Assembly: GCF_000735355.1 (NCBI RefSeq)
Contig: NZ_JMPI01000023.1
Coordinates: forward strand, 124,001-188,000
Reading direction: 5' to 3'
From: Buttiauxella agrestis ATCC 33320
GTDB lineage: Bacteria > Pseudomonadota > Gammaproteobacteria > Enterobacterales > Enterobacteriaceae
DNA length: 64,000 nucleotides
The translations under genes and the position numbers were made by a program. Shown here one piece after another: positions 30,759 to 44,232 of this stretch. Numbering within the stretch: the first letter of the stretch is position 1; each line of letters opens with the position of its first letter. The notes beneath the pieces were generated by a model. That model saw nothing but the letters and a program-made list of their open reading frames with translations, searched no databases and was not told the DNA's origin.

Positions 30759-31925
30759 CTAAACGGCGCGAGCTATTTTCTCACCCGCCCGACGCGCGGT
30801 GGCAGGCAGGATACTTGCCGTTGCCACGTAGCCATCGGGATCGAGACAGCGATCCCGCTCCAGCGCTTGCTCAATAACTTCCGCATCCCAGTAAATCTTT
30901 TTACGATGATCGCCCTGAGTGGTCAGCGTGGCTTCCATCACGCCATCCAGCGCCCGGTACTGACGCCAGCTATTGGCAGGAACTGAAATCACCGAACCTT
31001 CTTCAGCCACAATCGTGACTTCTTCACCTGGTCTATTCCACGTGATTTCCAGCGTTCCTTTAAACACCATCAGCACCTGAACATCCGGGCAGGAATGCAA
31101 ACCAACGCGATGCTGGTCCTGAATGCGCAGCCACTCCACAGAGAAACCATGCGGATTCATAATTGGCGGCGCGTTATGCAGGTCTTGTGATATTCCATAG
31201 CCAATCACCGGTGCCAGTTCGCCACCGTGTCCTGGCAAAACAGAATCCAGCAGAGCGTTCGCCGACCATGTCCGCTGCTCGCCCGTCACGGCGCGCTGGC
31301 TCATTTCCTCTATCGGATAATCGCGCAACGCGGCGATATGTTCCGCCCCCAGCGGCTGCAACAACTCGGATTGCGCGGGCAGTTTGTCGCCGGCCTCGAC
31401 ATCAATCAGCATATTGTCGCGACTCAGATACAAACCATATTCGCTTGCGGCCTCTAGTATCGACGGATGCCAGATAATCCCGCCGGTGTTATTGCCCCCT
31501 AAAACGGTGAACACCATGCCGCAGGTATCATTCGGGCTGACGTTAGTAAAACCGCGGAAAATCCACGTCGGGATAGACAAAATAGCCGGTGCGCTGAATT
31601 CCGCCTGATGCTCGCCATTGGCGCCCCAACGGAAACGCCAGCTCCCTTCATGAATCAAAAACACTTCGGCGGTGAAATGCAGATGCAGATTATTGGTGAC
31701 GCCTTTTGGCATCGCCGCCGCACCAATGTTAAACCCGTGCGGCTCGGGAATATTCACCACTTGCGAAGCCGACTGCGTCACGCCTGGGCCAATAAAGGAA
31801 TAGTTTTGTTTGAGGTGCGAGCCGGGTAGTTTGCAGTCGATAAACGCCACGCTACAGGACACGCGGTCTTCCGGGCGAACCAGGCGGCGCTGGGCTTCTT
31901 CTTGGGTCAGAGTAATATTTTGCAT
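30759..31925 (-). CDS. Bicupin protein of the catabolic cluster
   Basis: A 388-residue protein with two cupin domains, one at about 55-165 (NLHLHFTAEVFLIHEGSW, with metal-ligand-like His and Glu) and one at about 255-345 (HSCPDVQVLMVFKGTLEITW). Bicupins include metal-dependent dioxygenases, isomerases and decarboxylases. The first cupin keeps HxH...E ligands, so a metal enzyme is plausible. It is the last gene of a six-gene minus-strand run, 12 bases after the aldolase gene. The reaction is unknown. Confidence 0.8.
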   Translation of the reverse strand: MQNITLTQEEAQRRLVRPEDRVSCSVAFIDCKLPGSHLKQNYSFIGPGVTQSASQVVNIPEPHGFNIGAAAMPKGVTNNLHLHFTAEVFLIHEGSWRFRWGANGEHQAEFSAPAILSIPTWIFRGFTNVSPNDTCGMVFTVLGGNNTGGIIWHPSILEAASEYGLYLSRDNMLIDVEAGDKLPAQSELLQPLGAEHIAALRDYPIEEMSQRAVTGEQRTWSANALLDSVLPGHGGELAPVIGYGISQDLHNAPPIMNPHGFSVEWLRIQDQHRVGLHSCPDVQVLMVFKGTLEITWNRPGEEVTIVAEEGSVISVPANSWRQYRALDGVMEATLTTQGDHRKKIYWDAEVIEQALERDRCLDPDGYVATASILPATARRAGEKIARAV

Positions 31926-31936
31926 AATGTCCTCTA

Positions 31937-32728
31937 TTAATATCCAGATGCGCCACTGGTTGGCGCGGCTTCACCCCGCGCGGTGGCGATTGCGGTGCGT
32001 GACGCACTGCCCAGTTGCATAACGTCATTGGCCGGGGTCACAAAGTTAAAGCCTTGCGCAATTCGATTTGCGGCGGCCTGGCCTGATGTACAAAATATTC
32101 CGGCGAGTTTGTTATGTGCTTTGCAACGACTCAGCACTAACTCTATCGCGGCCAACATTTCAGGGTGTTGCGACTCGGCGCTGGCACTTCCCGTGAGCGT
32201 TAAAGAAAGGTCGTTTGGCCCGATAAATACGCCGTCCAGCCCGGCGGTATCCAGAATCGCGTCGAGATTTTCCAGCCCTTCGCGGGTTTCAATCATCGCC
32301 AGCGTCAGGATCTCTTCATTGGCATACTGCGGGTAATCTTTGCCGCCGTATAAAAGGGCGCGCGCCGGGCCAAAAGAGCGGTTACCGAGTGGCGGGTAGC
32401 GGCAGGCTGAAACAAACTGCCGCGCTTGTTCCGCCGTCGAAATCATCGGGCAGATGATTCCCCAGGCTCCGGCATCAAGCAGGCGCATAATTTGAGCGGG
32501 TTCATTGGTGTTCACGCGGGCCAGCGGCGTGGCAGGTGTCGCCGAAATGGCTTGCAGCATCGACAACGCGTTGGCGAAATCAATCATGCCGTGCTGCATA
32601 TCGACGGTGACGGAATCATAGCCCTGATGCCCGACGATTTCGGCGCTGTAGCCCGAAGGTATCGCCAGCCAACCATTAATGATGGGTTGCTGCTGGCGAA
32701 AGGCCGCTTTGAGCGGATTTTTTCTCAT
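31937..32728 (-). CDS. HpcH/HpaI-family aldolase
   Basis: A 263-residue class II (metal-dependent) aldolase of the HpaI/citrate-lyase-beta family, which splits or joins 2-oxo-4-hydroxy acids, usually giving pyruvate and an aldehyde. Motifs: GYDSVTVDMQHG near residue 36, ARVNTNEPAQIMRLLDAGAWG, the metal-binding glutamate in MIETREGLEN, and DGVFIGPNDLSLTLTG. The start ATG overlaps the hydrolase stop (ATGA). The substrate is not inferable. Confidence 0.88.
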   Translation of the reverse strand: MRKNPLKAAFRQQQPIINGWLAIPSGYSAEIVGHQGYDSVTVDMQHGMIDFANALSMLQAISATPATPLARVNTNEPAQIMRLLDAGAWGIICPMISTAEQARQFVSACRYPPLGNRSFGPARALLYGGKDYPQYANEEILTLAMIETREGLENLDAILDTAGLDGVFIGPNDLSLTLTGSASAESQHPEMLAAIELVLSRCKAHNKLAGIFCTSGQAAANRIAQGFNFVTPANDVMQLGSASRTAIATARGEAAPTSGASGY

Positions 32729-33468
32729 GGTTGTGTCTCCTGTATCCAGTTGCGCATGGCGATTGCCACCAGTTTCGGTTCTTCAAGCGGTAAGAAATGG
32801 CCGCTTTCAGGAAGCGTTATCCAGCGGGCATGAGCAGCGACAGCGGCAACCGACTGGTGATGTGAATGGGTACAAATGACGTCATACGCGCCGTTGATGA
32901 TGAGTATCGGAGAGGGAAACGTGGCCAGAGCCGCGCGATGGTCATCGCGTGAAATCGCCACCTCAGTCTGGTCTGCAAAAACCGCAATGCCGCACTCTTC
33001 AGCCATTTGTACGATTGTCTGGTGAAGCGACGCGTTATCCAGACGATGCGGGGCGACGTATTTCGGCCAGAGAGTTTTCGTGAGCCACGGCGCGACTCCC
33101 AGGCGCGCAGCTTCTTTCACCGCCGCACGTCGCCCGGCCGCGTTAGCGGGTAAATCCCGCAGCGGGTTCACGGACAGCAGCGCCAGACCGGCAATTCGAT
33201 GCGGAGCCAAAGCTACCATTTGCAGAGCCACCATTGCCCCGAGTGAAAAACCCGCCAGGCAAAAGCGCGGCGGCAAAACCTCGAGCAACTGAGTTGCCAG
33301 TTCATGCGCTGATTTGCCCGCGGTGAGCGTGATGCAGCTAAAAGAGGTCACATTTAACTGTTCGCTTAACGGCTGCCATAGCCGCCCGTTGCACAGCGTT
33401 CCGCCGAGCAGAATCAGTGGCGCGTGATGGTTTTCCAGCAAAGGCATCGTATTCATGTTGCTGTCCAC
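32725..33468 (-). CDS. Alpha/beta-fold hydrolase
   Basis: A 247-residue hydrolase with LILLGGTLCNGRLWQPL near the oxyanion region, nucleophile elbow GFSLGAM near residue 95, and a C-terminal histidine in ITLPESGHFLPLEEP. The acidic residue of the triad is probably in INGAYDVICTH. It resembles small esterases or C-C hydrolases of catabolic operons. It overlaps the SDR gene by 16 bases and the aldolase gene by four. Confidence 0.87.
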   Translation of the reverse strand: MDSNMNTMPLLENHHAPLILLGGTLCNGRLWQPLSEQLNVTSFSCITLTAGKSAHELATQLLEVLPPRFCLAGFSLGAMVALQMVALAPHRIAGLALLSVNPLRDLPANAAGRRAAVKEAARLGVAPWLTKTLWPKYVAPHRLDNASLHQTIVQMAEECGIAVFADQTEVAISRDDHRAALATFPSPILIINGAYDVICTHSHHQSVAAVAAHARWITLPESGHFLPLEEPKLVAIAMRNWIQETQP

Positions 33469-34220
33469 CCGCCATCGACCATTAATGCCGTGCCGGTAAT
33501 CAGGGCAGAAGCAGGCGAGGCGAGAAATACCACCGGCCCCATCACATCTTCCAGCGTCCCCAGCCGCTTCAGCTTTATGTTGTCCAACACATAGCGACTA
33601 AATGCCGGGTTTGCGAGATTCGCGCGCGACAGCTCGGTTTCGATAAACGTCGGGCACAGGGTATTCACTCGAATACCCGAATCGCCCAACTCCAGCGCCA
33701 TTGTTTTCGTCAAACCCTCTAGGGCAAACTTAGACGCGCAATAAACGCTGCGTTGCGGGCCGCCGACATGCCCCATTTGCGAGGAAATGTGAATAATTGA
33801 ACCTGGGATCTGGCGCATTTTCATACTGCGTGCAACTAACTGGCTAATAAAGAAGGTTGCCCGCAGATTGAGCGCCATGACCGCATCAAAATTTTCTTCA
33901 CTCACTTCAAGAAATGGTTGATGACGCGCAAGCCCGGCACTGTTTACCAGAATGTCGAACCCCGGTAGGTCTGCCAACGCAGCACCCGCCTGAGCGGTAT
34001 CGGTAATATCCAGCGCCAGGCTGTTTAATTGCAGGCCTTCTGCGGCAGCACTTTTAACCGCCTCCTCAAGCTGCTGCGCCTGGCGGGCAATAATCCACAC
34101 CTGCGCCCCGGCGCGTGCCAGGGCGATGGCCGCCGCAAAACCGATACCACGAGAACCGCCCGTCACTAAAGCCCGCTGATTATCGAGCCGGAATTCCGGT
34201 GTGCGAGGAAGCGCTATCAT
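33453..34220 (-). CDS. Short-chain dehydrogenase/reductase
   Basis: A 255-residue classical SDR. The cofactor motif TGGSRGIG is near residue 20, NSAGLARHQ matches the NAG position, and the catalytic Ser is in IHISSQMG, followed by YCASK (Tyr/Lys). The C-terminal ALMVDGGWTA is typical. It should oxidise or reduce a hydroxyl/keto group with NAD(P). Its ATG overlaps the stop of the upstream histidinol-dehydrogenase-like gene. Confidence 0.9.
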   Translation of the reverse strand: MIALPRTPEFRLDNQRALVTGGSRGIGFAAAIALARAGAQVWIIARQAQQLEEAVKSAAAEGLQLNSLALDITDTAQAGAALADLPGFDILVNSAGLARHQPFLEVSEENFDAVMALNLRATFFISQLVARSMKMRQIPGSIIHISSQMGHVGGPQRSVYCASKFALEGLTKTMALELGDSGIRVNTLCPTFIETELSRANLANPAFSRYVLDNIKLKRLGTLEDVMGPVVFLASPASALITGTALMVDGGWTAT

Positions 34221-35551
34221 TACGATGCCTTCTCAATATCCGCCGCCGGAACCGAGCCTGCGTATGGCACATCCTGGTTGCCGTAACGACGCACGCGAAT
34301 ATTGGCTTGCTCCGCATGGCCCGAGAAACCTTCGAGTTGGCACAAGCGTGAGCAATAGCTGCCAATTTCTGTAGAGGCTTCGTCACTCAGCACTTTCTGC
34401 CAGGTGCAGGTTTTCATAAACTTACCGACCCAAAGTCCGCCGGTATAACGCGCTGCTTTCTGCGTTGGCAGGGTATGGTTGGTGCCGATGACTTTATCGC
34501 CGTAAGCCACATTGGTGCGCGGGCCAAGGAACAGCGCACCAAAGTTGGTCATGTTGGCGAGGAACCAGTCGTCGCGGTTAGTCATCACCTGCACGTGCTC
34601 GGAGGCGATGCGGTCTGCTTCCTGCAACATCTCCTCGTAACTGTCGCAAACAATCACTTCGCCATAATCGCGCCATGCCTGGCGGGCAATTTCTGCGGTG
34701 GGCAATTGCGTCAGCAGGCGCTCAACTTCACGTATCGTTTCTTGTGCCAGTTTCAGCGAGTTGGTGAGCAGGATCGCAGGTGTGGTTACGCCGTGTTCGG
34801 CCTGACCCAGCAGGTCGGTGGCGCAGATTTCGGCGTCTACCGTTTCGTCGGCAATCACCAGCGTTTCCGTTGGCCCGGCGAACAAGTCGATGCCGACGCG
34901 GCCAAATAACTGGCGTTTAGCTTCTGCAACGAAGGCGTTACCCGGGCCGACCAGCATATCTACAGGCGCGATAGTGTCGGTGCCGAGCGCCATCGCGCCA
35001 ATCGCCTGAATACCGCCTAACGCGTAAATCTCCGTTGCACCCGCCATCGCCTGCGCGGCAACAATCGCCGGGGCAGGGCGACCATTAAACGGCGGCGCAC
35101 AGCTCACAATGCGCGAACACCCCGCTACGTTTGCCGTAATAATCGACATATGCGCTGAAGCCAGCAGCGGATATTTCCCACCGGGGACATAACAACCGAC
35201 GGCATTAATCGGAATGTTTTTATGACCAAGAATTACGCCGGGACGGGTTTCGATTTCAAGATCGGTCAGGCAACCTTTTTGCGCCGTGGCAAAATTAAAA
35301 ACTTGCTGCTGGGCAAACTCGATATCTTTAATATCCTGGCGGCTTAATTGTTTGATGCAGGCATTAATTTCACTCTGCGATAAACGATAATCCTGGCGAT
35401 CGTAATTATCGAACTTAATGGATAACTCACGAATAGCCTGATTACCGCGTTGTTCAATATCGGCCAGCGTATTTTCCACCACAATACTGACCTGTTTATT
35501 GGCCTGCTGGCGTTCAGATAATGATTTACTGGTTTTTAAATATTGCGCCAT
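34220..35551 (-). CDS. Histidinol-dehydrogenase-family enzyme 1
   Basis: A 443-residue NAD-dependent alcohol-to-acid dehydrogenase of the HisD family. Catalytic and zinc residues are all present: Gln and His in LLGQAEHG, Glu-His in ASEHVQVMT, Asp in [14 protein letters not shown], and the last His in [11 protein letters not shown]. It is not a his-operon gene: all neighbours are catabolic and there is a paralogue at 40508-41815. HisD homologues such as HpsN oxidise other alcohols through an aldehyde to the acid. AGGAGAGC precedes the ATG. Confidence 0.88.
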
Positions 35552-35645
35552 GACGCTCTCCTTTGATTTTTAATACGTGTTTATCCCGCCCGGCATTGCG
35601 GGTGAATGGGGTGAATCGGATTAAATAAACGATTAAGGTTTAAAT

Positions 35646-36896
35646 TTACTGGCTGGTTTTATTAGCATATTCCTGTGCCGAAGAAACGTTCGGCAGATTC
35701 TTTTGCGCCGCTTTTATCTGGCGCTGCTCCACACTGCGTGCCGCCATGGGTGTGAGGAAAGCCGCAATAACGCACAACACGCCAATCATCAGATACCCGG
35801 AAGACAAATTAATATGCTGCAACATCAAACCCATCGCGACCGGGCCGACAAACATGCCGACAGAATAAATGGTCTGGAATAAGCCCATGCGCGTTGATTG
35901 TTCATCCTCAACCGTATTCACCACGCTTAACGACATAAACACGGCGAATGCCATACCAAACGAGAAACCCGCCATCGCCTGTAAGAAATAGATGAGATAC
36001 ATATTGCTGGTGAAAGGAATGCCAATACTGGAAATCACTTGCAGGATAATGCCAATAACGGCGGTATTCACCAGTCCCAGGCGTTTATAAAACACCGAAC
36101 TACACATCGCTATCGCCAGCGCGTAGAAGATCAAATGGATATTACTCAGCAAGGTCAAAATACCGGCTTTCGCGCCGAGCTGTTGGGCATAAATAGGGGT
36201 CAGCGTATCGCGGGTGGCGAAAGGCACCAGGATGACAATGGTGGCCAGCAGGCCAATAAACCATACGGAAGGGTCCGCGAGCTGGCGCTTCGCACTTTTA
36301 ATACAGGCTTTAAGCGTGGGTGCGCGGGCAGCATCGTGAAATTCTTTAATGCGAAACGTCAGAATCAATGCCAGCAGCGCCGATACGCTTGAGACAAAAT
36401 AGCCGATGTTCTTGTCAAAAAAGTGGATTAACGCGCCACCAATACAGTTGCCGAGGAAAACCCCTAATGGCCCGGCAAGTGCCAGTAATGCCACAGCGGC
36501 AGGCGCATCTTTTTTATCAAAATAGCGAATAAACAGGATGTTATACAAAACCCAGGTCGCCGCAGTGAATCCATCGGCGGCCTTCGCCAGGTACAATGTC
36601 ACGGCGGTGGGTTCCAGGTAGGCTATCGGCCAGGTCACCATCGGTAACAGCAGGCTGACCTGGATAAATATTTTTCGGCTCTTCACCACGTCCGACAAAA
36701 TGCCAATCGGGAAACGGATAAATAACGTGGCTAATCCACTGGCGCCCATAATCATTCCCACCACTTCTGGCTGCATTCCTTCGCTGATTAACATCGGGGC
36801 GAGAAATGCATCGATACTGTGGATGCAAATGAAGAACAACACGCTAATGGTAAAAAACAGTCTGACTTCGGATCGACTAAAGAGTGCACGAAACAT
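35646..36896 (-). CDS. MFS transporter of the catabolic cluster
   Basis: A 416-residue permease with about 12 transmembrane segments. The loop 2-3 signature is FPIGILSDVVKSRK near residue 62, and the central hydrophilic loop (about 190-210) contains FHDAARAP. It is the first gene of the minus arm, starting in the region with the two palindromic operators. Presumed importer of the cluster's substrate. The family is broad, so specificity is unknown. Confidence 0.87.
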   Translation of the reverse strand: MFRALFSRSEVRLFFTISVLFFICIHSIDAFLAPMLISEGMQPEVVGMIMGASGLATLFIRFPIGILSDVVKSRKIFIQVSLLLPMVTWPIAYLEPTAVTLYLAKAADGFTAATWVLYNILFIRYFDKKDAPAAVALLALAGPLGVFLGNCIGGALIHFFDKNIGYFVSSVSALLALILTFRIKEFHDAARAPTLKACIKSAKRQLADPSVWFIGLLATIVILVPFATRDTLTPIYAQQLGAKAGILTLLSNIHLIFYALAIAMCSSVFYKRLGLVNTAVIGIILQVISSIGIPFTSNMYLIYFLQAMAGFSFGMAFAVFMSLSVVNTVEDEQSTRMGLFQTIYSVGMFVGPVAMGLMLQHINLSSGYLMIGVLCVIAAFLTPMAARSVEQRQIKAAQKNLPNVSSAQEYANKTSQ

Positions 36897-37013
36897 GTGG
36901 TGAACCTCTTAAATATTAATGGGTTATAACCAATCAAGTACGGCATTAACCGGTGCAATCCTTTGTCGCTAACTTGCGTCACCGGTAAAACTGACGGCGT
37001 ATTTTTTGTTTTC

Positions 37014-37027
37014 TGCATACGTATTCA
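37014..37027. promoter_or_regulatory. Operator-like palindrome 1 of the LacI-type regulator
   Basis: TGCATACGTATTCA is near-symmetric around the central CG/GT and 118 bases upstream of the MFS start. It shares TGCATACG-AT-CA with the second site 89 bases away. LacI-family sites have this size and symmetry. Confidence 0.65.
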
Positions 37028-37102
37028 AAAGTTGAAGTTACGAAAAGGTTTCAATTTTGTAAAGGCAGATAATGTAAATGTGAAAAAAATAATTTTGTCT
37101 GT

Positions 37103-37116
37103 TGCATACGCATGCA
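37103..37116. promoter_or_regulatory. Operator-like palindrome 2 of the LacI-type regulator
   Basis: TGCATACGCATGCA is a near-perfect palindrome (TTGCAT-ACGC-ATGCAA with flanks) 62 bases before the regulator start. It probably mediates control of the plus arm and autoregulation. Confidence 0.65.
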
Positions 37117-37177
37117 AAGATGGTGTAAGTATAAAAAACAGGCATTCCAGAGGGATGTGGATAAGGACTACCAAATC

Positions 37178-38248
37178 ATGAAACGTAAGACTTTTGGCCC
37201 CGTGACTTCTCAGCAAGTGGCACAAATAGCGGGAGTATCACAATCGGCGGTATCGCGCACTTTCACGCCAGGAGCGAGCATTTCTCCGGCAACGCGTGAA
37301 AAGGTGCTGAAGGCGGCGCGCGAACTGGGCTATCGGCCAAATGCCATTGCCCGATCCCTAAACACCGCCCGCTCAAGGATTGTGGGTGTGGTGATGTCCT
37401 ATTTTGATAACCAGTTCTACCCGCAGGTTCTGGAAGCACTGGCGCAAAAGCTCGATGAGCTGAATTACCACCTGCTGCTGTTTGTGGGCGACCGCGATGG
37501 TAACGTCGACCGGATTTTCGACCAGATCATGCAATACCGGGTTGACGGGATTGTGCTGGCTTCGGTTTCGCTGTCGGTCGAGCTTTCCGAAGAGTGTGTC
37601 GCTGCCGGGATCCCGGTGGTGCTGTTTAATCGCAGCGAAGAAAATGCCACGGCGTCGAGCGTGAATACCGATAACGAAGCGGCAGCCAAACAGATTGCAG
37701 AATTTCTGCTCGCCGGGGAGCACCAGCACTTTGCGTATGTGGCCGGGCTTTCTGACTCTTCGGTTAACCTGGCGCGGCAGAGTGGGTATATCAATACGCT
37801 TAATCACCACGGAATTAAGGATGTCCGCGTGGTGCAGGGGGATTACGATGCCAGAAAAACCGCAAAAGCGGCCTGGGAACTGTTTTCCTCGCCACAGCCA
37901 CCGGATGCCATTTTTGCTGCCAATGATCATATGGCGCTTACCGTGATGGATGTTGCCCGGTTCGAATTTGGCCTGCGGATTCCAGAAGATCTTTCGGTCA
38001 TCGGTTATGACGATACCGGCCCTTCAGGTTGGCCGTCTTACGCTCTGACGTCGGCATCTCAGCCTGTTGATGCCATGGTCGGGGCCACCATAGCGCTACT
38101 GATGAAACAGATTGAAAGTGAAAACATTGAACCGGAACAGGTTGTGGTTCCTGGTGTGCTGGTGGTGCGTCATTCCGCAAGGCGGCCACAATTTGGCGTT
38201 ATCGAAAAAGATGGGCTGTCATTGTTCCAGCCGCAGGAGGTTGAATGA
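37178..38248 (+). CDS. LacI-family transcriptional regulator of the catabolic cluster
   Basis: A 356-residue repressor. Helix-turn-helix at residues 10-55 (TSQQVAQIAGVSQSAVSRTF, then REKVLKAARELGYRPNAIAR with the hinge helix). The periplasmic-binding-protein-like effector domain follows (SRIVGVVMSYFDN...), with AIFAANDHMALTVMD and LSVIGYDDTG. ATG 37178 is chosen because it opens the DNA-binding domain; the frame upstream of it is unconserved. It lies between the two divergent arms and overlaps the next gene by four bases. The effector is probably a pathway intermediate. Confidence 0.9.
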   Translation: MKRKTFGPVTSQQVAQIAGVSQSAVSRTFTPGASISPATREKVLKAARELGYRPNAIARSLNTARSRIVGVVMSYFDNQFYPQVLEALAQKLDELNYHLLLFVGDRDGNVDRIFDQIMQYRVDGIVLASVSLSVELSEECVAAGIPVVLFNRSEENATASSVNTDNEAAAKQIAEFLLAGEHQHFAYVAGLSDSSVNLARQSGYINTLNHHGIKDVRVVQGDYDARKTAKAAWELFSSPQPPDAIFAANDHMALTVMDVARFEFGLRIPEDLSVIGYDDTGPSGWPSYALTSASQPVDAMVGATIALLMKQIESENIEPEQVVVPGVLVVRHSARRPQFGVIEKDGLSLFQPQEVE

Positions 38249-39216
38249 CCAGGTTGCCGGGCTTTAGCCCTCAGTTTGATTCTATCCAGCAGTTTATTTT
38301 GACGCTGACCCATGTGGTATGGGAGCAAAAAGATATCGGCCAACTGGCAGATTTCTACGCCACTCCGGTGGTATTTAACACCCCGGAAAAACAGCTCAAT
38401 GACCTGTCGCAATTTATGCGGCTCACGCTTGAAGCGATGCACAGTTTCCCGCATCGCACGGTGCTAACCGAAGATATTCTTTGTACCCATTCGCCGCAGT
38501 TTGAATATTACGCCGCGCAACGCACGGTGGCCTGTATCCAGCATCAGGGCGAGGGGTTCTTTGGGAAACCGAGCGGAAAATCGATTTGGGTGCGCACCTG
38601 GGCGGATCGCGTTTGCGCTGAAGGCGCAGTGCGTCAGGAGTGGTTATTGCAAGACCGCGCAGCCATCATTTTGCAAACGGGAATGGAAGTGCGTGATTTT
38701 GCGAGGCAACTCGCAGATTCACGTCGTGAAGCCGGGCTGGAAAATATCAGTGCCGAAGAGATGGACGCGCGCTGGGCGGGCGGCCCTGAAGGGGATGACG
38801 TTGATGGCCCACTTGCCGGACTGATTGAACGCTATTTGTCGATGTGGGCAGGTGGCAACAGCGGTGTGGTGCCAGGGTTATATCATCCTGCCGCAACGCT
38901 GCATGGGCCGGGCCACGTGTTGTGCACGGGCGAGCAGGATATCGGCGGTTTTCTTTCGGGATACCGGGCGTCGTTTGCCGACAGCGAAACGCATCTCCAT
39001 CACCTGGTGGTGCGCCGTGATGCCAATGAACCGGTGCGCCTTTCGTTGCGCTGGTCGCTGTTAACCTGGCACGACGGTTACGGGAAATTCGGTACCCCGA
39101 CCCGTCGCCCGGTTTCTATTACCGGTATTAGCCAACTGGAATTACGCGATGGGTTAATTATCCGGGAATATCTGGGTGTCGATGAATTAGCGATATGGTC
39201 ACAGATTTTTAATTAA
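38245..39216 (+). CDS. Double SnoaL/NTF2-like protein 1
   Basis: A 323-residue protein with two SnoaL/NTF2-fold domains, about 15-150 (VWEQKDIGQLADFYATPVVF) and about 190-320 (MWAGGNSGVVPGLYHPAATLHGPG). The fold serves cyclases, hydratases, dehydratases and isomerases. Its downstream neighbour is a second, similarly built protein. Translationally coupled to the regulator gene (ATGA). Enzyme activity is inferred from the fold and context only. A strong hairpin follows the gene. Confidence 0.75.
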   Translation: MTRLPGFSPQFDSIQQFILTLTHVVWEQKDIGQLADFYATPVVFNTPEKQLNDLSQFMRLTLEAMHSFPHRTVLTEDILCTHSPQFEYYAAQRTVACIQHQGEGFFGKPSGKSIWVRTWADRVCAEGAVRQEWLLQDRAAIILQTGMEVRDFARQLADSRREAGLENISAEEMDARWAGGPEGDDVDGPLAGLIERYLSMWAGGNSGVVPGLYHPAATLHGPGHVLCTGEQDIGGFLSGYRASFADSETHLHHLVVRRDANEPVRLSLRWSLLTWHDGYGKFGTPTRRPVSITGISQLELRDGLIIREYLGVDELAIWSQIFN

Positions 39217-39225
39217 TGACATTTA

Positions 39226-39250
39226 TTGGCGAGGATAACCTCCTCGCCAA
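39226..39250. repeat. Intercistronic hairpin
   Basis: TTGGCGAGG and CCTCGCCAA form a perfect 9-bp stem with a 7-base loop, 10 bases after the first SnoaL-like gene. No T run follows. It may set different expression levels for upstream and downstream genes. A second small inverted repeat, AGGGATA/TATCCCT, is at 39293-39310. Confidence 0.6.
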
Positions 39251-39364
39251 ATAGCTAACCCAGAAAATAAATATTATCGCCATTTGCAGGTGAGGGATAT
39301 TCCTATCCCTGAATAATGTGCGCTGACAATACCCATAGCGCAATCAAATAACGCAGGAGGTCAT

Positions 39365-40504
39365 ATGTCTTCAACTGAAACAACTAATAAAACGCCGGTA
39401 GCTTCGGAAAAAACCAATGTAAAATCCACGCGCGATGAACCGGTATTACAAGTGGAGCGCCGTGACTTTATTGATTTGGTTCCGGAGAAACGTCCGCGAG
39501 TGCAATCATTGCGGGGCTTTGATGATTGTTATACGGATATTGTCGATTACATTGTGCGTTGCACCCATAAAATATGGGACGAGCGTGACGTTGGTTTAAT
39601 TTACACCCACTATACCCACAACTGTGTTTTATATAATGCGCTCGGTACCATGTATAACCGCGAGCAGGTTGTGCAGGATACGTTGCAGCGCTTAATTGCC
39701 TTCCCTGAACGCCGCGGTATGGCAACGCAAGTTATCTGGAATGGTAACGACGTTGACGGTTTTTACACCTCCCACCTGGTAACCGGCACTGGCCGTCACA
39801 CTCAGTACAGTCATCTGGGTAAACCGACTAACCGCACGTTTGTGACCCGTACCGTGGCGGACTGCATGATCCACGAAAACAAGATTTATCGCGAGTGGGT
39901 GGTCAGCGACAACATGGCGATGATGCGTCAGCTGGGTCTGGATACCGACGCGATAGCCTACGGCATGGCAAAAGAGCAGTTCGATAAGGGCTTCCGTGTC
40001 ACCGATATCGGCGAAAACCGCCGCATGGTCGGGCAGTATCCGCCAGAAATGGAATGCGATGTCTCCATTGCGCATACCGATACCGAAGAGCAGTGCCTGC
40101 GCTGGCTGCACGAAATTTATAACCGCCGCATGCTCGGTAAAATCAAAGATGTGTATGCCCCGAATGTGCAGTGGCATGGGCCGCTGATGAAAGAGTTGTA
40201 CGGTCAGGCGGCGGTTATCCACCAGACGCTGGCGCTGATTGGCATGATCCCGGACGGGGCGTGGATGCCGCAGCATGTCTGCTCCAATCCTTGCGAAGAA
40301 GGCGGTACCAAAGTGGCGGTGCGTTGGATCATGGAAGGCCACCACTTGGGTTACGGCGAGCTGGGTAAACCGACCGGTGAGCGCCTGTTCGTTATGGGGA
40401 TGTCCCACTATCACATCGTCAACGGCAAAATCGTTGATGAATGGGTGGTCTACGACCATCTGGCTCTGCTGGCACAAATTAAACTGGGACAAATGGAGGA
40501 GTAA
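39365..40504 (+). CDS. Double SnoaL/NTF2-like protein 2
   Basis: A 379-residue protein with two SnoaL/NTF2-like domains at about 60-195 (IWDERDVGLIYTHYTHNCVL ... YREWVVSDNMAMMRQLG) and about 235-375 (RMLGKIKDVYAPNVQWHGP ... VDEWVVYDHLALLAQI). The two halves repeat the same pattern, including WVV-D--A/L-L near each end, so it is an internal duplication. AGGAGGTCAT precedes the ATG. It is four bases from the next gene. It resembles 38245-39216 in layout; function unknown. Confidence 0.78.
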   Translation: MSSTETTNKTPVASEKTNVKSTRDEPVLQVERRDFIDLVPEKRPRVQSLRGFDDCYTDIVDYIVRCTHKIWDERDVGLIYTHYTHNCVLYNALGTMYNREQVVQDTLQRLIAFPERRGMATQVIWNGNDVDGFYTSHLVTGTGRHTQYSHLGKPTNRTFVTRTVADCMIHENKIYREWVVSDNMAMMRQLGLDTDAIAYGMAKEQFDKGFRVTDIGENRRMVGQYPPEMECDVSIAHTDTEEQCLRWLHEIYNRRMLGKIKDVYAPNVQWHGPLMKELYGQAAVIHQTLALIGMIPDGAWMPQHVCSNPCEEGGTKVAVRWIMEGHHLGYGELGKPTGERLFVMGMSHYHIVNGKIVDEWVVYDHLALLAQIKLGQMEE

Positions 40505-40507
40505 GAA

Positions 40508-41815
40508 ATGGCAACGATTTCTGAGGCTGATGTTGAGTTTATTAAACGTCCGCAGGGGCAAGATGTTCAGGCTGACCGCACGCTAACCGAGACGGTGCAG
40601 AATATTATCGACCAGGTGCGCGAGCGTGGCGATGCTGCGCTGCGTGACTACTCGGCAAAGTTTGATAAAACCACGCCGGACAAATTTGAAGTTTCGGAAC
40701 ATGAAATTGCCAGCGCACTGGCGGATCTCGACCCGCAAACGCGCAAGGACAGCGAGTTTGCCATTGCGCAGGTTAAACGCTTTGCGCAGGCGCAACTGGC
40801 AACCATGCAACCGCTGGATATCGAAACGCTGCCGGGCGTGCATCTCGGGCACCGCATTATCCCTATTCAGACTGTGGGCTGTTATGTGCCTGGCGGGCGT
40901 TACCCCATTTTATCCGCGCCGGTAATGTCCATTGTCCCGGCGGTAGTGGCAGGATGTGACCAGATTATTGCCTGTCTGCCGCCGGGGGCGCATCCGGCGA
41001 TGATAGCCATTTGCCACCTTGCGGGGGCGCACCGCATCTTTAAGGTTGGTGGCGCACAGGCGATTGCCGCCATGGCCTGGGGGACAGAATCTATCCCGGT
41101 AGTGGATAAAGTTGTCGGGCCGGGCAATGCCTTTGTTAACGAAGCTAAACGCCAGGTGTTTGGTAAAGTCGGCATCGACGCCCTGGCTGGGCCAAGTGAG
41201 ATTTATGTGATTGCTGATGACAGCGCAGACCCGCGAATTCTGGCGGCAGACCTTTTGGCTCAGGCTGAACATGATGTGCATACCCGCGTCGGGATGGCGA
41301 CCACCAGTCCACAAATCGCCCGCGCGACGCTGGCTGAAATTGAACGCCAGCTGTCGAATTTACCCACGGCAGTAACCGCAGGTGAAGCCTGGAAACGACA
41401 GGGCGAAATTGTGATTTGCCGCGACGAGGAACAACTCATCGCCTGGGCAGACCATATGGCCACGGAACATCTGCAAGTGCACACCCGCGACCCACATGCG
41501 ACGGCCAGCAAAATCCGTAATTATGGTTCGTTGTTCATCGGGCAAAATGCCAGCGTTGTGTTCTCTGACAAGTGCTGCGGAACCAACCATACATTGCCAA
41601 CGATGGCTGCGGCTCGCTATACCGGCGGTTTGTGGGTTGGCGCGTATGTGAAAATTTGCACCCACCAGTGGATTGACGACCATGGAATTGCAGCCGTCGC
41701 GCAACCTGCTGTCCGCCAAAGCCGCACTGAAGGAATGCAGGCTCATCGCCGCGCGGCGGAAATTCGTTTGTTACCAGAAAGTATTGATGCAATAACAAAT
41801 GGAGATCGCGATTAA
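40508..41815 (+). CDS. Histidinol-dehydrogenase-family enzyme 2
   Basis: A 435-residue HisD-family NAD-dependent dehydrogenase. All residues of the E. coli active site are in place with an offset of six or seven: zinc ligands Gln252, His255, Asp354 and His413; catalytic Glu320-His321. The start of the family core is [21 protein letters not shown]. It shares the YVPGG and GTNHTLPT blocks with the paralogue at 34220-35551 but differs widely elsewhere, so the two likely act on different intermediates. Last gene of the plus arm. Confidence 0.88.
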   Translation: MATISEADVEFIKRPQGQDVQADRTLTETVQNIIDQVRERGDAALRDYSAKFDKTTPDKFEVSEHEIASALADLDPQTRKDSEFAIAQVKRFAQAQLATMQPLDIETLPGVHLGHRIIPIQTVGCYVPGGRYPILSAPVMSIVPAVVAGCDQIIACLPPGAHPAMIAICHLAGAHRIFKVGGAQAIAAMAWGTESIPVVDKVVGPGNAFVNEAKRQVFGKVGIDALAGPSEIYVIADDSADPRILAADLLAQAEHDVHTRVGMATTSPQIARATLAEIERQLSNLPTAVTAGEAWKRQGEIVICRDEEQLIAWADHMATEHLQVHTRDPHATASKIRNYGSLFIGQNASVVFSDKCCGTNHTLPTMAAARYTGGLWVGAYVKICTHQWIDDHGIAAVAQPAVRQSRTEGMQAHRRAAEIRLLPESIDAITNGDRD

Positions 41816-42374: not shown

Positions 42375-43262
42375 TCAGGTGTTCTGTGCAATGTATTTAT
42401 ACATTCCAGCTGTTAGAGGAAGATGCAGGTTGAAGTTTTTATCGGGTAAGACGCTATTAAACCATTGATCATAAAATGACTTAAAATCATGGCGCTTGAA
42501 CCGATCTGCCAGAGAGGCATCGACTATTTTTTTGAATTCTTGATCGTCATAACGGAGCATGATACCCAGATTTTGCGGCGTACCCAGCGTCAGATCTGAC
42601 ATCTGATAATCTTCAGGATGTTCACTACTTTCAATCAGTTCCTTAAGCGACACCTCATTCGTTGCTGTCGCAAAACTCTTATGCTGAGTCATAGTAATAA
42701 AGGCATCTTTCATTGTCGGTTGAGTCAAAACAAATAGATTAAGATTCTGTACCCGATTGAGGGTATTAGCACTAATTAAGTCTGCCGTTCCCTTGGTTAC
42801 ACTGATTGTTCTGCCCGCTAAGTCTAAAAAAGTATGAATATTTGTACCGACAGGGGTACCGAATCGTGTTTGAACTAACAGATAATGGCGGGAGAATGAA
42901 ACGACGCTTCGGCGTTTTACGGTATCCGTATTAACCGAACAATCCATATCAATCACATTATGTTTTAGCATCGGGATGCGCATGGATATGGGCACAGGAA
43001 TATAGTTAACTTCCAGATGATTAATGTGCAGATTCTTTTTGAGACTTTCCGTCACGTTTTTGCACAATTCAATGACATACCCAACAACCTGTCCATCACG
43101 AGTTTTGTAGGAATAGGGCGGTGCATCGCGATAGCCAATATTGATGATTTTATGGCTGGAAATTCTTTCCAGCGTAGACATATTCGGTTCTGCTTTCACC
43201 GCAGTCACGGTAATTAGCATAAACAAACTTAATATATAACTCAGGTACGGTTTCTGTTTCAT
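42375..43262 (-). CDS. Periplasmic solute-binding protein 2 (SBP_bac_3 type)
   Basis: Predicted 295-residue periplasmic binding protein of the polar amino acid type. The signal peptide MKQKPYLSYILSLFMLITVT...VKA is cut before EPNM. Family blocks: INIGYRDAPPYSYKTRDGQVVGYVIELCKN and MLKHNVIDMDCSVNTDTVKRRSVVSFS. ATG 43262 starts a clean leader; an in-frame ATG at 43325 overlaps the preceding gene but lacks a leader. No permease or ATPase is nearby. It is the third gene of the operon led by the GGDEF/EAL protein, so a sensing role is likelier than transport. Confidence 0.82.
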   Translation of the reverse strand: MKQKPYLSYILSLFMLITVTAVKAEPNMSTLERISSHKIINIGYRDAPPYSYKTRDGQVVGYVIELCKNVTESLKKNLHINHLEVNYIPVPISMRIPMLKHNVIDMDCSVNTDTVKRRSVVSFSRHYLLVQTRFGTPVGTNIHTFLDLAGRTISVTKGTADLISANTLNRVQNLNLFVLTQPTMKDAFITMTQHKSFATATNEVSLKELIESSEHPEDYQMSDLTLGTPQNLGIMLRYDDQEFKKIVDASLADRFKRHDFKSFYDQWFNSVLPDKNFNLHLPLTAGMYKYIAQNT

Positions 43263-43314
43263 TGATAGGCTTTTATCGTTTGTCGTTATCTTCGGGTGCT
43301 CACCGGAAAAATAT

Positions 43315-44232
43315 TTAATAAGCATACGGGGTTTGCGAAGAAATACGCTTCTTCAATTCTGGCGATAATGGCAAGTTGAGAGTCACTCCTTCAGGCATTA
43401 TCGGCCGCATAAACCATTTATTATAGATAGTCATGAAATCTGGACTTTGTAGCAGACGTTTCATCGAGGTATTGATCAGCGCGGTAAATTTCGGATTCCC
43501 TTTCTTAATCGGCATGGCGATGGGCAATCGCGGGCTGAGGGTCTGTGCAGAAATCCTGAATGCCTGCGGGTGCCCTGAAAGCGCTGCTTGCGCAAGCAGT
43601 AACACGTCGCTGGAAACAATCACCGGCGTTCTGCCACTTTCCAGCTCGGAAAAAGCCTTCGTATTGTCGGTGCCGAGATCAATATTCAATGACAGTTGGT
43701 GCTGGGCGTTCGCTTCCTGGATATGTCTGACGAACACCGTACCGCTTTTCACGATAACCGTATGGCCGTTCAGCTCTTCAATATCCGTAATATCATCTTC
43801 CATACGCGACACAAAGCGGGTCGCTGAGAAGAAATACGGTTCAGAAAAGGTCACGATTTTTTGCCTTTCTGCCGTGTAAATCGTGGGGATGCAGCCCATA
43901 TCGATGCTTTTATTTTTGACGGTTAAAAACTGTGTGGCGGTGGTGACGGGAACCCATTTGATGCGAAGCTCAGGAAGCTTTAACTCCTGTTTAATCATGT
44001 CGATCAGTTTATGGCAGATATCAATGGAATAACCTTGTGGCTTATTATTTTCGAAATAAGAATAAGGAAATACATCTGTCTGATAACTCAGAGTGATGGT
44101 TTTGTTTTGGGTGATACGAGCCAAAATGTCTTCCGCATGGCCGCTCGAAGGAATGAGCATACCAAGGGAAAATATTAATGCTGCGGCCGTAAAGCATGAT
44201 GCTTGATATAAACTCTTGATTAAGAGTGACAT
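43315..44232 (-). CDS. Periplasmic solute-binding protein 1 (SBP_bac_3 type)
   Basis: A 305-residue periplasmic binding protein with signal peptide to SSGHA before EDIL. Blocks: ITLSYQTDVFPYSYFENNKPQGYSI, DICHKLIDMIKQELKLPEL, KNKSIDMGCIPTIYTAERQK and VIVKSGT. Its start lies 13 bases inside the end of the GGDEF/EAL gene, so the two are translationally coupled. It is a diverged paralogue of the downstream binding protein: both keep IDM-C and the C-terminal YNKWF/YDQWF block. The absence of transporter genes suggests it presents a ligand to the membrane protein. The ligand is probably an amino-acid-like compound. Confidence 0.83.
   Translation of the reverse strand: MSLLIKSLYQASCFTAAALIFSLGMLIPSSGHAEDILARITQNKTITLSYQTDVFPYSYFENNKPQGYSIDICHKLIDMIKQELKLPELRIKWVPVTTATQFLTVKNKSIDMGCIPTIYTAERQKIVTFSEPYFFSATRFVSRMEDDITDIEELNGHTVIVKSGTVFVRHIQEANAQHQLSLNIDLGTDNTKAFSELESGRTPVIVSSDVLLLAQAALSGHPQAFRISAQTLSPRLPIAMPIKKGNPKFTALINTSMKRLLQSPDFMTIYNKWFMRPIMPEGVTLNLPLSPELKKRISSQTPYAY

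Follow-up and report, generated by a model that had tools for sequence, protein, structure and literature searches.

In Cupriavidus, the catabolism of dihydroxypropanesulfonate (DHPS) is encoded by hpsRNOUP, which clusters a HisD-type enzyme with a short-chain dehydrogenase/reductase (SDR), an MFS importer and a regulator (PMC11382572). A similar combination lies at positions 30759-41815 of the DNA analyzed here, a 64,000-nucleotide stretch of Buttiauxella agrestis ATCC 33320 (contig NZ_JMPI01000023.1; hereafter, the window). Unlike hpsRNOUP, this ten-gene unit encodes two HisD-type proteins devoid of the His126 of HpsN (HisD-A and HisD-B), together with a cupin, SnoaL-like proteins and an aldolase, and includes no named sulfolyase. 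With biosynthetic HisD, HisD-A and HisD-B share PF00815 and the zinc-binding and catalytic residues, whereas their placement in separate clades and the replacement of tyrosine by lysine at position 353 set them apart from that enzyme. By every in silico sign examined, the genes of the unit are co-regulated, and they make up a catabolic-type regulon that is widely shared. In line with the original prediction, which was made from the sequence of the window and knew of no pathway with this gene set, none was found described in the open-access literature, most subscription papers lying outside it.

Conservation and shared operators of the gene set

Relatives of the unit were sought by scanning genome contigs with an alignment of SnoaL2 (39365..40504, plus strand; 379 amino acids, two SnoaL/NTF2-like domains), the most conserved marker of the set. 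The scan yielded 301 relatives, the best 80 of which were kept as loci. As longest-frame calling of open reading frames (ORFs) missed genes in GC-rich loci, gene classes were assigned instead by tblastn of the reference proteins, counting matches at 35% identity or above; the resulting locus counts are lower bounds, some contigs being short and some fragments having been dropped by the match filter. This search for the gene set in other genomes, a check proposed with the original prediction, retrieved the exact ten-gene order and orientation in 20 of the 80 loci and an eight-class core (HisD-A, HisD-B, SDR, cupin, hydrolase, aldolase, SnoaL2 and LacI) in 43 of them. Because order and orientation recur exactly in these 20 loci, the ten-gene arrangement is more than chance. 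An MFS or sugar ABC importer was present in 63/80 loci, transporter matches being loose, and CUT1-like sugar importers with a solute-binding protein were found in many relatives. SnoaL1 (38245..39216, plus strand; 323 amino acids), whose two SnoaL/NTF2-like domains match the SnoaL and SnoaL_2 models in different halves of the protein, occurred in all 29 enterobacterial-type loci and in none of the 51 others.

The nearest named relative of SnoaL2 is that of Buttiauxella izardii (99%), and the marker was found in seven of the 12 genomes of the window's genus, in one of which it is split. A relative was encoded at E <= 1e-40 by 22 of 398 genomes drawn from the phylum, with four scores above 700 bits; E. 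coli genomes gave no match to the unit by megablast. The core is present on annotated plasmids of Pantoea, Novosphingobium, Alloyangia and Martelella, and two Deinococcus plasmids carry two HisDs along with the other classes of the set. HisD-B was missing from the stretch examined in Sinorhizobium medicae, as were the aldolase and hydrolase from that examined in Roseibium. In a contig of Pantoea sp. Eser, a stink-bug symbiont (L082), the cluster looks broken, with the cupin, LacI and HisD-B genes each in two fragments. A contig titled Chryseobacterium (L039) bears an enterobacterial-type cluster with a SnoaL2 that is 93% identical, and is probably mislabelled or derived from a mixed assembly; both there and in L040, the right arm and MFS gene are present, with HisD-A, SDR, hydrolase, aldolase and cupin unmatched on the left. 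Phaeobacter piscinae and Vibrio pelagius display tandem SnoaL genes and a sugar ABC importer with no HisD nearby, perhaps a related system that is likewise unassigned.

Alignment of the gap separating the MFS gene (35646..36896, minus strand; 416 amino acids, MFS_1; presumed importer) from the LacI-family regulator gene (37178..38248, plus strand; LacI and Peripla_BP_3 domains) in the window and 20 loci revealed two conserved, CG-centred palindromes. These predicted operators, O1 (TGCATACGTATTCA, 37014..37027) and O2 (TGCATACGCATGCA, 37103..37116), whose centres are 89 bases apart, are supported by the gap alignment and by word counts, and represent the two copies of the palindrome TGMATACGYATKCA between the arms. 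The TGMATACGYATKCA word was found in 59/80 loci, compared to 0/80 for the reversed control. Fourteen locus-bearing genomes contained 30 exact sites and no reversed word; 28 of these sites fell within retrieved cluster loci or regions, and the remaining two (in G111 and G112) were on the same contig as a second site, ~13 kb away from it. Both Deinococcus sets carried the operator word, and the Priestia set carried it twice. Searching the window's genome (4.7 Mb in 93 contigs) for TGNATACGYATNCA returned four exact sites, namely O1, O2 and two sites around an unlinked amidase gene. With one mismatch allowed, the same genome gave 29 strand matches versus 13 for the reversed control, and near matches are therefore largely noise. 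The regulator itself matched PF00356 and PF13377 (LacI DNA-binding and ligand domains) above cut-off. The gene set is thus accompanied by shared CG-centred palindromic operators that are rare elsewhere, as expected in silico of a LacI regulon, and the LacI protein of the cluster would be the binder of these palindromes. That the ten genes form one co-regulated unit around this regulator, a point on which the original prediction had agreed beforehand to stand or fall, was borne out in silico by the shared operators. The start of the regulator is probably to be corrected: the listed ORF begins at 37112 but, because this upstream ATG falls within a conserved operator, translation probably starts at ATG 37178, after GATAAGGA.

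The amidase came to light in the gene set of Pantoea dispersa, a 65% relative being encoded on another contig of the window's genome with the operator word 103 bases upstream of its ORF. In one congener, the operator word likewise directly precedes the amidase match. Judging from these sequences, the unlinked amidase is likely to be a missing member of the regulon. An amidase was found within 42/80 loci, and its motifs were conserved among the aligned proteins. Only two of 60 genomes, however, encoded it at E <= 1e-100, and it was not found at the cut-off used in five congeners carrying the SnoaL2 marker; given this scarcity and these five congeners, the amidase is an optional member. In Deinococcus, its place is taken by a carbon-nitrogen hydrolase of the nitrilase superfamily, for which the best models were formamidase and aliphatic amidase, both below cut-offs. 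The occurrence of an operator-bearing amidase, on the one hand, and of the Deinococcus hydrolase, on the other, suggests that a carboxamide may be one accepted form of the substrate. Nothing more was learned from the ORF lists around the unlinked amidase. Some 400 bases beyond the amidase gene, a 170-amino acid ORF of the other strand contains a perfect palindrome, TGGATACGTATCCA (L112:11797-11810, corresponding to C32:49796-49809 in the window's own genome).

Enzymes of the two arms

HisD-A (34220..35551, minus strand; 443 amino acids) and HisD-B (40508..41815, plus strand; 435 amino acids) both match Histidinol_dh and are of the zinc/NAD alcohol-to-acid dehydrogenase type. In a tree of 41 proteins, 15 HisD-A and 15 HisD-B sequences formed one clade each (support 100/99). 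Two true HisDs fell outside both clades, as did two sulfopropanediol dehydrogenases, which joined the HisD-A side weakly (91/59), the program warning of long branches. The window's genome encodes a third, higher-scoring HisD (550 bits), such that the cluster proteins neither group with true HisD nor stand as the sole HisD of the organism, as a biosynthetic HisD would. On the basis of their sequences, they are two subfamilies of their own, which the original prediction had not seen and which carry a histidine-biosynthesis annotation in public records. Q248, H251, D352, H411, E318 and H319, which represent the zinc-binding and catalytic residues, were complete in all 37 cluster HisDs tabulated, in agreement with the HisD-type activity first assigned to them. 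Lys353 was likewise present in 37/37, in place of the tyrosine of the two true HisDs, and is shared with HpsN, as are the zinc-binding and catalytic residues. Position 126, in contrast, was occupied by Leu, Met or Ile in every cluster HisD and in none by the histidine (GRY[AS]H motif) that marks HpsN (PMC11382572). The nearest solved structures of both proteins were HpsN and a DHPS dehydrogenase. From the intact zinc-binding and catalytic residues, the presence of Lys353 and the absence of His126, both HisDs probably oxidize a primary alcohol that neighbours a zinc-binding heteroatom, and the substrate group close to the lysine is probably polar or anionic.

The HpcH/HpaI class II aldolase (31937..32728, minus strand; 263 amino acids) was assigned from its family model and nearest solved structures. 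It shares the family and conserved active-site residues of HpaI, GarL and hydroxyketoacid aldolase (D43, H46, R71, E147 and D173, conserved in 31 aligned proteins) but scored below every NCBIfam cut-off, the best scores being those of 4-hydroxy-2-oxoheptanedioate and 2-dehydro-3-deoxyglucarate aldolases. Over the 80 loci, an HpcH/HpaI-type protein was found in 28, an RraA-type protein in 26, and both in none. The alternation of these two non-homologous pyruvate aldolase families at the same place supports, as far as sequences go, a predicted retro-aldol step, and sustains the pyruvate-type aldolase of the original prediction. The RraA-type proteins, found in alphaproteobacterial relatives, resemble the 4-carboxy-4-hydroxy-2-oxoadipate aldolase LigK/PcmE by their RraA-like fold and by an Arg131-Asp132 pair conserved in 29 proteins; this type is not present in the window, and its best match to the LigK/PcmE model reached 35.5 bits for a cut-off of 304.5.

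Conserved residues were also found in the SDR (33453..34220, minus strand; 255 amino acids, adh_short_C2), with N118, S147, Y160 and K164 retained in 71 aligned proteins, and in the alpha/beta hydrolase (32725..33468, minus strand; 247 amino acids, Abhydrolase_6/_1), with S75 and H224 retained in 64. The residues considered in these two enzymes, in the aldolase and RraA-type proteins and in the amidase motifs are those which we take to be catalytic. The bicupin (30759..31925, minus strand; 388 amino acids) matched Cupin_2 just above cut-off and yielded a two-barrel model (predicted local distance difference test [pLDDT], 92.1), the fold matches of which were generic bicupins; among 32 relatives, E87 was invariant, and H81 and H83 were conserved in 90% or more. 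Searches by sequence, profile and fold did not reveal a recognizable dioxygenase, returning either no match or generic cupins. SnoaL1 and SnoaL2 are each twice the length of a SnoaL domain; SnoaL1 matched SnoaL models in both halves, and the SnoaL2 model (pLDDT, 84.5) comprised two NTF2-like domains. They have the NTF2-like fold in common with SnoaL-type polyketide cyclases, from which they differ by their two domains per chain and by their setting in a catabolic-type regulon. Fold searches for a SnoaL function returned generic NTF2-like matches.

A further protein, absent from the window, recurs next to the cupin in some relatives. Of 93 loci searched, 13 encoded a MetE-like protein (Meth_synt_2), 12 of them alphaproteobacterial and the other being L176, with none from enterobacteria; it adjoins the cupin in 12 of the 13, one of which comes from a coral isolate. 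The MetE-like sequences display an H-x-C pair, a Glu and a Cys resembling the zinc ligands of MetE.

Proposed pathway and candidate substrates

Taken together, the sequences make it rather probable that the unit is a LacI-controlled catabolic regulon proceeding through import, alcohol-to-acid oxidation by two HisDs, opening of the carbon skeleton and aldol cleavage. The regulator would bind the two palindromes between the arms and a further one before the distant amidase gene, and be released by an inducer. Entry through the MFS protein, whose role a sugar-type ABC importer would assume in many relatives, is envisaged for a small, polar compound in which one or more CH2OH groups adjoin a carbon with OH or NH. 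Should the substrate be a carboxamide, the amidase (or the nitrilase-superfamily protein in Deinococcus) would free the acid. HisD-A and HisD-B, using zinc and NAD, would turn primary alcohols into carboxylates, a reaction that HisD and HpsN each catalyze with their respective substrates; rearrangement and opening of the carbon skeleton would be the task of the SDR, SnoaL proteins, cupin and alpha/beta hydrolase, in an unspecified order, and the class II aldolase would split a 4-hydroxy-2-oxo acid into pyruvate and a second metabolite. Binding by this very regulator, the direction of the pathway, the order of its reactions, the inducer and the substrate are what we infer. Of the catabolic interpretation first put forward, the LacI unit, the catabolic type, the HisD step and the pyruvate-type aldolase were retained; the amidase, the MetE-like protein and the HisD subfamilies had been overlooked. 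Enterobacterales share the 14-base operator with bacteria as distant as Deinococcus and Priestia, which points to a common natural substrate whose breakdown by bacteria seems to be undescribed; the short gene list and reporter-ready operator may be used to find this substrate.

Several observations weigh against this proposal. The exact operator word was missing from 21/80 loci; short contigs are among them, and so are full-length loci of roseobacters, Paracoccus and sphingomonads. Within the window taken by itself, the one-mismatch word had four matches, a number reached by nine of 100 shuffles and thus not clearly above chance. No aldolase was found in 26/80 loci, and RraA-type proteins may also be decarboxylases. 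The compact set of Priestia filamentosa has a single HisD, as do the sets of Ruegeria and Roseomonas, in whose stretches an aldolase was not found either, and Phaeobacter piscinae, P. inhibens and Vibrio pelagius harbor SnoaL relatives with no HisD within 9 kb. The operator word was absent from the Ruegeria, P. piscinae and Vibrio loci, and Roseomonas showed one near form.

Two more specific versions of the LacI-regulon proposal were considered. The substrate may, tentatively, be an open-chain polyol, amino-polyol or sugar amide, which the HisDs would oxidize to sugar acids, the SDR and SnoaL proteins convert to a 2-oxo-3-deoxy acid and the aldolase cleave to pyruvate. The LacI type of the regulator, the CUT1-like sugar importers of many relatives and the two aldolase models that score best, albeit below cut-off, for the window's aldolase speak for such a route. 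It leaves the cupin and MetE-like protein unexplained, however, and as neither IlvD nor an enolase-type dehydratase occurred among the recurrent classes, some groups of which were left unannotated, the dehydration would fall to the SnoaL proteins. A kinase was not found among these classes either. Less likely, in our opinion, is the catabolism of mycosporine sunscreens. Mycosporines carry a C5 hydroxymethyl and a C2 methoxyl group (PMC7828830), and fungal ones include glutaminol and glucoside forms (PMC10057719). One HisD would then act on the C5 hydroxymethyl of the cyclohexenone and the other on the amino alcohol of the glutaminol side chain; the amidase would hydrolyze the glutaminol amide, the MetE-like protein take up the C2 O-methyl group, and the cupin and hydrolase cleave the ring, giving an acid resembling 4-carboxy-4-hydroxy-2-oxoadipate, from which the aldolase would release pyruvate and oxaloacetate. 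Mycosporines match the four features sought (a hydroxymethyl on a C-OH or C-N carbon, an optional amide, an optional O-methyl and a skeleton yielding a 4-hydroxy-2-oxo acid), and the frequency of the amidase, the cupin-adjoining MetE-like protein with its one coral isolate, and the weak LigK/PcmE match of RraA relatives might fit them as well. Bacteria may act on mycosporines, since Vibrio harveyi has been suggested to hydrolyze shinorine and porphyra-334 to mycosporine-glycine (review PMC3083659), and a gene set for mycosporine degradation was not found in the open-access literature. The fit, on the other hand, is one of functional groups only. The MetE-like protein is foreign to enterobacterial loci, the LigK/PcmE match is far under its cut-off, the cut-off used for the amidase left five marker-bearing congeners without one, the recurrent classes showed no glucosidase, and Priestia has a single HisD. 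If true, mycosporine breakdown would draw on HisDs of two new subfamilies, on an amide hydrolase and, in some species, on a MetE-like demethylase.

Two readings outside these appear highly improbable. HpsN-like HisDs acting in sulfonate catabolism of the DHPS kind would account for the nearest solved structures and for Lys353, but not for the missing His126, and a sulfolyase was named in 0/14 annotated stretches, SuyAB, Xsc and CuyA not having been the object of a sequence search. We give equally little credit to a biosynthetic or detoxifying cluster in which the SnoaL proteins are polyketide cyclase-like enzymes and the MFS protein an exporter: the SnoaL folds do match polyketide cyclases and the MFS protein weakly matches efflux models, whereas no assembly enzyme was named in the same 14 stretches, importers with a solute-binding protein occur in many relatives, and a HisD next to a pyruvate aldolase indicates breakdown. 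Pantothenate, 2-C-methylerythritol, pyridoxine and chloramphenicol were set aside as substrates on chemical grounds alone.

Layout and surroundings of the unit

The ORF list and domain models placed all ten ORFs at 30759-41815, in two divergent arms and in the families originally proposed. Gaps from the bicupin to the MFS gene are of 11, -4, -16, -1 and 94 bases, and those of the right arm of -4, 148 and 3 bases; six of the eight joints are therefore of 12 bases or less, as the original prediction had stated of most neighbours, the exceptions being HisD-A/MFS (94) and SnoaL1/SnoaL2 (148). The latter gap contains an 8-bp perfect hairpin (39228..39248, plus strand), possibly an attenuator or processing site. 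Promoter-like sites in the promoter scan were not above shuffles (nine versus a mean of 12.8), and terminator-like sites were slightly above them (21 versus a mean of 16.2, standard deviation 4.2). The GC content of the cluster genes ranges from 49.5 to 57.4%, that of the window being 49.7%. A pyruvate kinase gene flanks the unit to the left. To its right lie genes for GGDEF/EAL proteins and for two adjacent SBP_bac_3 solute-binding proteins, the pairing of which next to a GGDEF/EAL protein (42375-44232) possibly represents a sensory unit.

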